Source: Acidobacteriaceae bacterium
GTDB lineage: Bacteria; Acidobacteriota; Terriglobia; Terriglobales; Acidobacteriaceae
Direction: 5' to 3'
DNA: 64,000 nucleotides
Assembly: GCA_003131585.1 (NCBI GenBank)
Contig: PKVW01000010.1
Location: 16,371 to 80,370, forward strand
Part shown: positions 1-57,506 of the stretch, in pieces
Layout: each line of letters opens with the position of its first letter
How positions within the stretch are numbered: the first letter of the stretch is position 1
Made by a program: the position numbers and the translations under genes
Notes under the pieces: generated by a model
The model's database searches: none
Told to the model about the DNA's origin: nothing
Seen by the model: the letters and a program-made list of their open reading frames with translations, nothing else

Positions 1-1221
1 TACGACAAGCCGCTGGCCGAGCATGGGTATGTAGAAATCAGCAGCAGAGATCGCGTTTCGAACGTTTCCGACGGCAGTCAGGTGTCGCGGGGGAAAGACG
101 CGGGCGGGGGCGCCCGCGCTACGAAAATCGGCATCACTCGCGTGCATCTCGAAGAAGACGCGGGCAAGAGCCTGCATGAGGACTTTCCGGATTCCGACTT
201 AAAGACTGCCATCGACCTGAACCGAGCCGGTGTGCCGCTGATCGAGATTGTCAGTGAGCCCGACATTGCCACGCCCGACGAGGCCTACGAATACCTAACG
301 CGGCTGAAGGAGATCATCCTCTACACCGGCGTGAGCGACTGCAACATGGAGCAGGGTTCGCTGCGCTGCGACGCCAACGTCAGCGTGCGTCCGCGCGGAC
401 AGAAAGAGTTGGGCACGAAAGCCGAAATCAAGAACGTAAATTCATTCCGCTACATCCGCGAGGCGCTGATCTACGAGATCGCGCGCCAGGTAGAAACGAT
501 CGACTCCGGCGGCAAGGTCGCGCAGGAAACCCGGCTCTATAATTCGCACGAGGGCAAGACCTACAGCATGCGCTCGAAAGAGCAGGCGCACGACTACCGG
601 TATTTTCCCGAGCCTGACCTGCTGCCGCTGGTGGTGGACGAAAAGTGGAAGGCCGAGATCACGAAGACATTGTCCGAGCTGCCGGAAGCGCGCCGCCAGC
701 GCCTGGTGAAGGAATATGGCATCACCGAATACGACGCGCAGGTGCTGACGGTTTCGAAGTCGCTCGCCGATCAGTTTGAGGCGGCGGCGAAGGCGGCGAA
801 GAATCCCAAGCGCGTGGCGAATCTGGTGCAGGGCGAACTGCTGGGCCGTCTCAAGGCTCGGGGCGCGGAGATTGAGCAGTCTCCGATTTCGATGAAAGGC
901 GTGGCGGCATCCGCCGATCTGGTCGAGAGCGGCGCCATCTCGGGCAAGATGCTCAAGGATCTCTACGACCTCTGCTTTGAGCGCAACAAAGACTTTCCCG
1001 AGGTCTACGACGAAGAAGGGCGTCCGCAGCAGTCGACAGACACGTCCGCATTGGAAAAGATGATCGACGAAGTTATTGCCGCGAGTCCCAAGCAAGTCGA
1101 ACAATACCGCGCCGGCAAGAAGACCATGATCGGATTCTTCGTCGGCCAGGTGATGAAAGCGTCCAAAGGACAGGCGAATCCGCAGTTGGTGAACGAGTTG
1201 CTGACCAAGAAGCTGGAATGA
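1..1221 (+). CDS. gatB: Asp-tRNA(Asn)/Glu-tRNA(Gln) amidotransferase subunit B, 5' end outside window
   Basis: Frame open from base 1 (YDKPLAEHGYVEIS...); KIGITRVHLEEDAGKS, DLNRAGVPLIEIVSEPD, QGSLRCDANVSVRP motifs of GatB. The ORF track start at 82 is internal. Confidence 0.96.
   Translation, partial: YDKPLAEHGYVEISSRDRVSNVSDGSQVSRGKDAGGGARATKIGITRVHLEEDAGKSLHEDFPDSDLKTAIDLNRAGVPLIEIVSEPDIATPDEAYEYLTRLKEIILYTGVSDCNMEQGSLRCDANVSVRPRGQKELGTKAEIKNVNSFRYIREALIYEIARQVETIDSGGKVAQETRLYNSHEGKTYSMRSKEQAHDYRYFPEPDLLPLVVDEKWKAEITKTLSELPEARRQRLVKEYGITEYDAQVLTVSKSLADQFEAAAKAAKNPKRVANLVQGELLGRLKARGAEIEQSPISMKGVAASADLVESGAISGKMLKDLYDLCFERNKDFPEVYDEEGRPQQSTDTSALEKMIDEVIAASPKQVEQYRAGKKTMIGFFVGQVMKASKGQANPQLVNELLTKKLE
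98..119 (+). repeat. REP-like palindrome (CGCGGGCG-GGGG-CGCCCGCG) inside gatB reading frame
   Basis: acgcgggcgggggcgcccgcgc; exact reverse complement of 24272-24293. Confidence 0.8.
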
Positions 1222-1238
1222 AGGTGTAGATTTTGTGG

Positions 1239-1273
1239 GACCGGGTCTTTGACCCGGTCAGGCCCGCAGGGCC
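1239..1273. repeat. Paired hairpins upstream of RAYT transposase (REP-like)
   Basis: GACCGGGTC-TTT-GACCCGGTC (1239-1259) followed by GGCCC-GCA-GGGCC (1261-1273). Confidence 0.8.
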
Positions 1274-1281
1274 GAGGTAGT

Positions 1282-1755
1282 ATGCAGCCGAAGTATGATT
1301 ACCGTCGTCGTCTTCCTCATCTCCAAAAAGATGATCATCCTCTCTTCGTAACTTTTGCCACCAAGTACAGGTGGAAACTTCCTCCGGCCGCCCGCGACAT
1401 TGTGTTCGAGTGCTGCGTGAAAGAGAGCGGCGGCAAGTTCAACCTGCATGTTGGAGTGGTCATGCCCGACCACGTTCACTTGATCTACTCGCCGTTGCGC
1501 CGGGAAGACGGCTGGAGCTACAGCCTGCCCGAGATCATGCAGGCAATCAAGGGAACAGCAGCGTGGCGGATCAATCATCTGCTGAAGCGCACGGGGCCGG
1601 TCTGGCAAGAAGAGTTCTTCGATCACGTTGTTCGATCAAATGAGAGTTTGGTAGACAAGGTGGCTTACATTTGCGAGAACCCAGTACGGGCAGGGCTGGT
1701 CGAGTCTGAGAGCGAATACCGCTGGCTGTGGAAGGGAGCGATTCCCGTCTTGTGA
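1282..1755 (+). mobile_element. REP-associated tyrosine transposase (RAYT / Y1_Tnp family)
   Basis: GVVMPDHVHLIYSPL (HxH motif), YICENPVRAGLV; flanked by mirrored hairpin pairs. Confidence 0.88.
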
Positions 1756-1775: not shown

Positions 1776-1814
1776 GCGGCCTGTCGGCCGCATGACCGGG
1801 TCAGAGACCCGGTC
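1776..1814. repeat. Paired hairpins downstream of RAYT, mirror image of 1239-1273
   Basis: GCGGCC-TGTC-GGCCGC then GACCGGGTC-AGA-GACCCGGTC. Confidence 0.8.
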
Positions 1815-1915
1815 CTACACATTTAACGTGACCGAAGTAATCTGATTCCTTGCTCTTGTTGCCGCTACGATGATTCGGAGCCTGTTTATCCTGGGCTGAC
1901 CGTTCGAGAGCATTT

Positions 1916-24249: not shown

Positions 24250-24271
24250 GAAAGTGTGGTGAGCCTGTGTG

Positions 24272-24293
24272 GCGCGGGCGCCCCCGCCCGCGT
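24272..24293 (-). repeat. Intergenic copy of the gatB palindrome
   Basis: gcgcgggcgcccccgcccgcgt, exact RC of 98-119. Confidence 0.85.
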
Positions 24294-55334: not shown

Positions 55335-57506
55335 ATGAAGCAGGTCATCCATGCCGCGTGTCCGCACGATTGCCCCGATGCTTGCGGAGTGCTGATCACG
55401 GTCGAGGACGGTCGCGCGACGAAAATTCAGGGCGATCCCGGCCATCCCGTGACGCGAGGATTCTTGTGCGCGAAAGTGGCGAAGTATTTGGACCGCGTGT
55501 ATTCGCCGGACCGGGTGCTGTACCCGATGCGGCGCATAGCGCCGAAGGGGTTGACGGCTGGCGGCGCAAAAGCGGGCGAGGGCGCCTGCGCCACACAAAG
55601 CTGGCAGCGCATCACTTGGGACGAAGCGCTCGATGAGATTGCCGCGCGCTTCCGCGCCATCATTGCCGAGTTCGGTAGCGAGGCGATTCTGCCGTATTCC
55701 TACGGCGGAACGCTGGGCGCGCTGAATGGCGCTTCCATGGATCGCAGATTCTTCAGCCGGCTGGGTGCCTCGCAACTTGAGCGCACCATTTGTTCTTCGG
55801 CGGGCGAGGCCGGGCTGGAGTCTGTGTTCGGCGTGAAACTCGGCACCGAGCCCGAGCAGTTCATCCATGCTCGCTACATCATCGCGTGGGCTTCGAACAT
55901 TCATGGCAACAATGTTCACCTGTGGCCGTTCATTGCGGAAGCGCGGCGCAGGGGCGCGAAGCTGGTGGTAATCGATCCCTACCGCACGCGCACCGCGGCA
56001 TGCGCCGACTGGTATCTGCCGATCAATCCGGGCACCGATGGTGCGCTGGCGCTGGCCATGATGCACGTGATCATCAGCGAAGGGCTGCACGACGCAGATT
56101 ACGTGGCGAAGTACACGCTGGGCTTCGACCACCTGGTTGAAAAGGTTAAGGCCTACCCGCCGGAACGCGCGGCGCAGTGGACGGGGATTGCTGCCGAAGA
56201 TATCCGTAAGCTGGCGCGCGAGTATGCCACGGTGCGGCCTTCGGTCATTCGCCTGAATTACGGCGTCCAGCGCTCGGAAGGCGGCGGAATGGCCACGCGC
56301 GCGATTGTCATGCTGCCATGCATCATCGGGTCGTTGAAAGAAGTGGGCGGCGGCCTGCACCTCTCGACCAGCGGCGCGTTTGGGCTGAACAATGACGCCT
56401 TGAGGCGTCCCGACCTCAAGCCGGAGGATCGCCAGCGGCCACCGCGGGTGGTGAACATGGTTCGGCTGGGTGAGGCGCTGAACACGCTGAGCGATCCGCC
56501 GGTGAAGGCGTTGTTCGTCTACAACTCAAATCCGGCGGCGGTTTGCCCAAATCACAATGAAGTGGTTCGCGGACTCAAGCGCCCGGACTTATTTGCCGTT
56601 GTCCACGAGCAGTTTTTCACCGACACGACCGACTACGCCGACATTGTGTTGCCGGCGACGACGTTCTTCGAGCACAAAGATTTACAGACGGCGTACGGCC
56701 ACTACTACTTGCAGGTGTCGGATCAGGCGATCGAGCCGTTGGGAGAGTGTCGGGCGAATGTTGAAGCATTCCGTGCGCTGGCCGGGCGGATGGGATTCCA
56801 GGACCCGTGCTTTGCCGAAACCATCGACCAGATGATCGATGGCGCGCTGGCTTCGAGCAACCCGTGGTTGGATGGTCTCAACCGGGAGCGACTGGAGCGC
56901 GAAGGGCAGGTGAGGCTGAACTTCAGTTCCCAGTTGCCAGTGGCCGGTGGCCAGCCAGAAACGACGCCAGGCATCCACAAAGCTCACGAACCCTTCCTTC
57001 CATTCGCCAGCGGTAACTTCCGCACCCCTTCGGGCAAGGCTGAACTGTACAGCGAAGCGATGATAGCGCTGGGGCTCGATCCGGTGGCTGAGTTCACGCC
57101 CCCGGCGGAATCGCGGCATGGAGGACAGGGGAAAGCATTCCCCCTCGAACTCCTGGCGCGCAAGTCCGACAACTTCCTGAACTCAACTTTCTCGAACCTG
57201 CCCTCGGTCCAAACGATGGAAGAGACGAACCTTCTGGAAATGCACTCCGCCGATGCCCGGGCGCGTGGAATCGCCGACGGAGAGACGGTGAGGGTATACA
57301 ACCGGCGCGGAGAAATCTTTTTGAAGGCTCGAGTGGATGGCGCAGTTCAGTCAGGAGTGGTCTCGGCGAAGCTGAACTGGGCCAAGCTCGGCCCTGGGTT
57401 CCGGAATATCAACGTGCTGACCTCAGAAAAACTTTCCGATCTGGGCAACTCCGCCACGTTTTATTCCGTCTTGGTTGAGGTGGAACCAGCAAAGTCCTTT
57501 CCATGA
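55335..57506 (+). CDS. Molybdopterin oxidoreductase family protein
   Basis: HAACPHDCPDACGVLITVEDG; GHPVTRGFLCAKVAKYLDRVYSPDRVLYPMRR; SNPAAVCPNHNEVVRGL. Confidence 0.93.
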   Translation: MKQVIHAACPHDCPDACGVLITVEDGRATKIQGDPGHPVTRGFLCAKVAKYLDRVYSPDRVLYPMRRIAPKGLTAGGAKAGEGACATQSWQRITWDEALDEIAARFRAIIAEFGSEAILPYSYGGTLGALNGASMDRRFFSRLGASQLERTICSSAGEAGLESVFGVKLGTEPEQFIHARYIIAWASNIHGNNVHLWPFIAEARRRGAKLVVIDPYRTRTAACADWYLPINPGTDGALALAMMHVIISEGLHDADYVAKYTLGFDHLVEKVKAYPPERAAQWTGIAAEDIRKLAREYATVRPSVIRLNYGVQRSEGGGMATRAIVMLPCIIGSLKEVGGGLHLSTSGAFGLNNDALRRPDLKPEDRQRPPRVVNMVRLGEALNTLSDPPVKALFVYNSNPAAVCPNHNEVVRGLKRPDLFAVVHEQFFTDTTDYADIVLPATTFFEHKDLQTAYGHYYLQVSDQAIEPLGECRANVEAFRALAGRMGFQDPCFAETIDQMIDGALASSNPWLDGLNRERLEREGQVRLNFSSQLPVAGGQPETTPGIHKAHEPFLPFASGNFRTPSGKAELYSEAMIALGLDPVAEFTPPAESRHGGQGKAFPLELLARKSDNFLNSTFSNLPSVQTMEETNLLEMHSADARARGIADGETVRVYNRRGEIFLKARVDGAVQSGVVSAKLNWAKLGPGFRNINVLTSEKLSDLGNSATFYSVLVEVEPAKSFP
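55571..55596 (+). repeat. Variant of gatB palindrome inside molybdopterin oxidoreductase frame
   Basis: agcgggcgagggcgcctgcgccacac; encodes KAGEGACAT. Confidence 0.65.

Follow-up and report, generated by a model that had tools for sequence, protein, structure and literature searches.

In-frame REP hairpins at a recurrently occupied loop of a molybdopterin oxidoreductase in Acidobacteriota

The oxidoreductase gene and the palindrome in its linker

The window, that is, the whole stretch of 64,000 nucleotides that was analysed, derives from a contig of an Acidobacteriaceae bacterium and includes a complete gene for a molybdopterin oxidoreductase. The domains of its product (Molybdopterin, Molydop_binding and Fe4S4) and the comparison with homologues place it in the DMSO-reductase superfamily; the homologues with named records belong to Candidatus Sulfotelmatobacter and other Acidobacteriota MAGs. 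The gene contains the following features:

55335..57506, plus strand: DMSO-reductase-family molybdopterin oxidoreductase, 723 aa, ATG start (open reading frame and domains)
55551..55601, plus strand: hot-spot linker 1, residues 73-89 (LTAGGAKAGEGACATQS), from KG to WQRITWDEAL (linker lengths, low-confidence model segment)
55572..55598, plus strand: REP element of family A, hairpin GCGGGCG-AGGG-CGCCTGC and foot GCCACACAA (consensus match, fold)
55591..55594, minus strand: GTGG foot (tag) of this REP (foot tally over aligned copies; tag definition in PMC3733652, PMC6006769)
56937..56984, plus strand: hot-spot linker 2, residues 535-550 (REP matches in orthologues, model)

A sequence-only reading of this DNA had pointed to extra residues ahead of the WDEAL segment, and the comparison bears this out: linker 1 comprises 17 residues here versus 3 in six distant homologues (L127, L131, L134, L136, L137, L140). 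Across 75 orthologues, the distance from KG to the [WF]xRI[ST]W motif ranges from 9 to 111 nt, namely, 9 nt in the distant homologues and 18-111 nt in the relatives. An ungapped alignment through this region, set beforehand as the refutation, was not obtained, the distant homologues being without the segment. The same reading had assigned the DNA of the linker to a palindrome family with further copies in gatB and near position 24272, and had placed it inside the oxidoreductase. Indeed, GCGGGCGAGGGCGCCTGCGCCAC at 55572-55594 of the plus strand matches the extended consensus GCGGGCGRGGGCGCCYGCGCYAC with 0 mismatches, and this in-frame element encodes AGEGACATQ, about 9 of the roughly 14 extra residues. 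Perfect consensus matches number three in the window, versus 0.03 expected from shuffled sequences, the other two being:

100..125, plus strand: family A REP in gatB, in frame (AGGGARAT), with a GTAG foot (consensus match, at 100-122)
24269..24291, minus strand: family A REP, intergenic, shortly after a gene end (consensus match)

The present analysis adds the identity of the segment, a REP, and the status of its site as a hot spot of recurrent occupation. In the AlphaFold2 model of the oxidoreductase, pLDDT falls below 50 at residues 75-87 and at residues 535-550, segments that coincide with the two hot spots and are each flanked by ordered elements; since the alignment behind the model is only 23 rows deep, the low pLDDT may reflect shallow alignment rather than true disorder. 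Linker 2 (residues 535-550) holds family B and C REPs in at least 10 congeners and no REP in this genome's own oxidoreductase; at 56924-56955 of the window, it opens with TTCAGTTCCCAGTTGCCAGTGGCCGGTGGCC, short repeats in place of a REP.

Family A and the RAYT genes

In the published definition, a short REP combines a GT[AG]G foot with a hairpin at a distance of 0-2 nt, the stem measuring 7-20 bp and the loop 2-5 nt (PMC6006769, PMC3733652). Family A conforms to this definition in foot, stem and loop, and is multicopy as well: the element is about 25 bp long, with a stem of 7-8 bp and a 4-nt loop, and its consensus, read on the opposite strand, is TGTGTGG-CGCGGGCG-CCCT-CGCCCGCG. Among 48 aligned copies, the foot is GTGG in 44 and GTAG in 4. 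The stem covaries in this alignment of 48 copies, one row of which (L165) comes from the related family D: four of the eight pairs are changed on both sides, with 13 double-change cells, a level reached in 0 of 500 shuffles, and the signal is lost in slid registers. One base pair of the stem occurs as CG in 33 copies, AU in 9, UG in 2 and GC in 1. In one sub-family, which has an A-T base pair (AAGGCAGCGGGCG...CGCCCGCTCCAC), the copies come after runs rich in lysine, serine and alanine (KSKAKSKA), within putative open reading frames (L022 at 578, L168 at 1525, L170 at 840).

The oxidoreductase copy is decayed. Its outermost stem position has A opposite G in place of the consensus C-G, and a C-to-T change has produced a G.T pair, so that seven pairs remain, one of them G.T; the DNA fold energy is -7.6 kcal/mol versus -12.2 kcal/mol for the consensus. 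The G.T pair and the unpaired outer position suggest an older copy.

A census combining pattern search with retrieved stretches gave about 45-47 family A copies, in both orientations, in the 3.93-Mb genome, the reversed-pattern control yielding 0-5. The family is present in 31 of 36 congeners, with up to 91 copies (G004), and absent from all 24 genomes outside the genus, 61 genomes having been searched; the genomes are draft MAGs.

Enzymes of the type that copies REPs are encoded in this genome, where 14 Y1_Tnp matches are found. One of them lies in the window, directly behind gatB, between two REPs of a different family:

1235..1259, plus strand: family C REP (GTGGGACCGGGTCTTTGACCCGGTC), 5' of the RAYT gene (repeat match)
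1282..1755, plus strand: RAYT (REP-associated tyrosine transposase, NF047646), directly behind gatB (open reading frame from 1249, likely start ATG 1282)
1794..1818, minus strand: family C REP, 3' of the RAYT gene, inverted relative to the 5' copy (repeat match)

The segment 1235-1818 is thus a complete family C REPtron directly after gatB, a gene that itself carries a family A REP. Other RAYT genes of this genome have REPs of family B (L160) or family D (L156) at their flanks. No family A REPtron was seen among the 11 of 14 RAYT matches inspected here. Such REPtrons are found in the congener G002, namely at L357, which lies between two copies, of which that on the 5' side is degenerate, and at L349, with three copies; both proteins match the NF047646 profile, that of L357 slightly below the cut-off. 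As no family A REPtron was seen here, the mobiliser of family A in this genome is inferred from G002.

Occupation of the same protein loops across the genus

At least 10 family A copies of this genome are located inside conserved proteins, as recognised by Pfam or by solved homologues: the oxidoreductase, GatB, Tgt, MoeA, an S9 peptidase, ThiE, ArgS, a CHAD-HD protein, a beta-lactamase-like protein and AnmK. For Tgt, MoeA, ThiE and the oxidoreductase, the comparison with solved homologues reveals in-frame insertion. Altogether, as far as the stretches were annotated, about 10 of 47 copies lie inside conserved proteins, about 5 more are located at the ends of proteins, and the remainder falls outside recognised proteins. 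In the gene for dihydrouridine synthase (L006), both ends of the open reading frame bear a family A copy, the two in the same orientation; across the other host genes, both orientations occur.

The GTGG-footed element is free of stop codons in all six frames, and the GTAG form closes one frame. The check for frame bias that had been proposed from the sequence gave a divided result. No genome-wide bias was found: the 10 internal copies are read as AGEGARAT, CGAGALAR and VARAPSPA three times each and as RGRGHPL once, so that no single frame is favoured. At the oxidoreductase site, the frame is constant, AGEGARAT being used by all 15 of the 15 same-strand family A copies in the orthologues.

The oxidoreductase linker is recurrently occupied. 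A strict match, requiring both tag (foot) and hairpin, was found in linker 1 of 27 of the 75 orthologues (codon-shuffled sequences: mean 0.08, maximum 1); these counts refer to sequences, not events, some insertions being common by descent. The contents of the linker are diverse: family A, the unrelated family B (RSFAPHGQPRAAVPTQ), family C, composites of A and B, elements in the opposite orientation (one clade: L102, L104, L114, L117), hairpin loops with a further palindrome nested inside them (CCCCTTCGACTGTCGCTCAGGGCAGG in L042) and feet without a hairpin. Elsewhere in the gene there are 17 strict matches, of which 15 are in linker 2 and two, about the chance level, lie outside it. The possibility that the hot spot is an artefact of the choice of gene is countered in three ways. 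When this genome is left out, 16 of 29 still have a match at linker 1, and 10 of the 11 matches elsewhere are at residue 543; the control genes frr and bamA have no strict match in 24.8 kb and one in 75 kb, respectively; and linker 1 holds 27 REPs in 3.9 kb versus 5 in 16 kb for the 200 bp upstream of the gene.

Other host proteins behave similarly to varying degrees. Congeners also carry insertions at the MoeA, ThiE and S9 sites, some of them flipped or nested, and some of the sites are empty; in particular, the S9 site is empty in L296 and L298 and filled in other congeners. In gatB and argS, REPs recur weakly, with 1 of 29 for either gene. The Tgt linkers contain A, B, tandem GGTCAGTG-type units and CCTCGCTTCGCTCGGAATGAC palindromes, adding up to about 90 residues.

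Several related observations can be noted here. In Tgt, ahead of LFGIVQGG (L178-L207), nearly every congener has a different repeat-derived insert, the longest reaching about 90 aa; inverted heptamer-like arrays (GGTCAGTGGTCAGTG ... CACTGACCACTGACC) are among these inserts. In several congeners, the ArgS linker after WVMRRAGT (L208-L226) contains tandem repeats of the CCACAGAGGACACAGAGG type (STTEDTEDT). A third, CCCTTCGACAAGCTCAGGGCAGG-like palindrome sits inside the family A hairpin loops of several unrelated genes, as if it were loop-targeting (L042 and L129 in the oxidoreductase, L281 in MoeA, L318, L322 and L331 in ThiE, L309 in S9).

On a tree of the enzyme built without the linker, the family A label changes 11 times, versus a mean of 10.4 for shuffled labels, and the six classes of linker content change 30 times. 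That the linker content was simply passed on vertically from a single origin is rejected as the whole story, given this lack of phylogenetic signal and the flips of orientation. One part of the linker appears to stay in place: in 14 of 26 foot-bearing linkers, the last foot, CCACACA, is separated from the W codon that follows by exactly 5 nt, and in three linkers (L032, L057, L120), a family B element is accompanied by a second, hairpin-less foot. This is most simply read as an old insertion with a lasting foot, beside which hairpins were lost and new REPs added.

Origin of the insertions and relation to known repeats

The explanation that we consider very probable is that RAYT-mobilised REPs persist in frame where protein loops tolerate them, and that their hairpins then turn over in place. 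Family A is a REP hairpin with a GTGG, more rarely a GTAG, foot, of the type copied by RAYT (TnpA-REP, HUH/Y1) transposases, and such an enzyme presumably made the copies described here. REPs would land at many places, and one family A copy would have entered an oxidoreductase loop that connects two strands; purifying selection would leave in-frame copies in tolerant loops. The oxidoreductase copy would have survived because its length keeps the frame, the GTGG form is free of stop codons, and the loop tolerates extra residues, the enzyme with the insert presumably still being functional. Later, other REPs would have inserted repeatedly, with nesting and loss of hairpins, the 3' foot staying in place. 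Tolerance, that is, selection, would account for the sites better than specific targeting, since repeats of unrelated types are found at the same sites.

An alternative with fewer events, which we regard as rather unlikely, is that one composite, with B next to A, arose at the base of the genus and subsequently suffered only hairpin deletion and drift, with few or no later insertions. The constant orientation and frame of the same-strand A copies, the foot fixed 5 nt before the W codon, the A+B composites and the linkers with B and an orphan foot all agree with it. However, it does not accommodate the clade with the opposite orientation, the presence of family C and nested palindromes, the wholly unrelated repeats in congener Tgt linkers, or the S9 sites that are empty in two congeners and filled elsewhere.

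A further possibility, unlikely in our estimate, is that the linkers are true targets: RAYT would insert at a specific tetranucleotide and strand, as Y1/HUH enzymes do, with a preference for the foot of a REP already present, and would swap hairpins at this landing pad. The fixed position and orientation of the foot and the turnover without phylogenetic signal would then be expected, as would a REP density in the linker far above that of the upstream intergenic DNA, which tolerance alone does not obviously predict. Yet repeats of unrelated kinds that lack a GTGG foot (the tandem GGTCAGTG or CAGTACT units, CCTCGCTTCGCTCGGAATGAC palindromes and CCACAGAGGACACAGAGG) gather at the Tgt and ArgS sites, in favour of tolerance over targeting by one enzyme. 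In its extended form, still more doubtful, this idea would have fixed intragenic landing pads at which RAYT, by swapping hairpins at the resident foot, repeatedly rewrites loop peptides of housekeeping enzymes with strand and frame kept; if true, it would amount to a cut-and-replace source of protein loop diversity.

It seems highly unlikely that the AGEGARATQ peptide was recruited for enzyme function, for instance as a flexible linker or for partner binding, and kept by selection at the protein level: the frame is fixed at the oxidoreductase site across the genus, but orthologues carry unrelated peptides (RSFAPHGQPRAAVPTQ, PCGADTPVRAA and others) or just 3-8 residues, and the reading frame varies among host genes. 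A regulatory element (an internal terminator, an mRNA stabiliser or a protein-binding site in the transcript), to which the stable consensus hairpin would be suited, is equally improbable and was rejected, there being no Rfam match and no terminator-like site; besides, the oxidoreductase copy is decayed, and both orientations occur in other host genes.

Returning to REPs that persist in tolerant loops, mobile hairpins would re-enter the same loops of core enzymes of translation (GatB, ArgS), tRNA modification (Tgt) and cofactor synthesis (MoeA, ThiE). Two questions thereby become open to testing, namely, which loops of proteins accept foreign peptides and whether RAYT favours particular targets. 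Variable peptides of these proteins, such as AGEGARATQ and RSFAPHGQPRAAVPTQ, would be repeats that are translated and not motifs that are conserved.

REPs are generally regarded as extragenic elements. The closest known counterparts of family A are the GTAG-tagged REPs with RAYT, hairpins of 20-40 bp present in many copies and both orientations (Di Nocera et al. 2013, PMC3733652; PMC6006769), with which family A shares the hairpin with a GTAG/GTGG foot, the high copy number, the occurrence in both orientations and the flanking of RAYT genes. Intragenic GTAG-type REPs have been reported, most of them in O. terrae, whose GTAG-20 elements mostly carry GTGG (PMC3733652); by analogy, the stop-free GTGG foot may explain the entry of GTGG-footed families into genes. 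From the Acidobacteriota, that work reported just transposase genes flanked by inverted repeats, in Koribacter (PMC3733652). The Rickettsia palindromic elements, palindromes of about 150 bp in frame in housekeeping genes (PMC10969869), resemble family A in that it, too, lies in frame in conserved proteins with the frame kept; family A differs in being about 25 bp long, RAYT-footed and, among 61 genomes, confined to its genus, and hence in neither size nor host is it a Rickettsia element. Enterobacterial small mobile sequences and MITEs, which also have intragenic in-frame copies (PMC2759123, PMC2229807), are, like family A, non-autonomous repeats that add codons to genes, but the RU-type elements among them, of 100-170 bp, are a different class.

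Thus, the kind of element is known, intragenic REPs and Rickettsia palindromic elements having been published (PMC3733652, PMC10969869). In the literature searched, no report was found in which REPs colonise the same protein loops again and again with a fixed foot, although such a report may exist elsewhere. What is new relative to the GTAG-type REPs is the genus-wide reoccupation of the same protein loops by multiple families in Acidobacteriota, with foot-anchored turnover: in Candidatus Sulfotelmatobacter, unlike in the REPs described before, different families refill the same loops across the genus, leaving orphan feet and nested palindromes.
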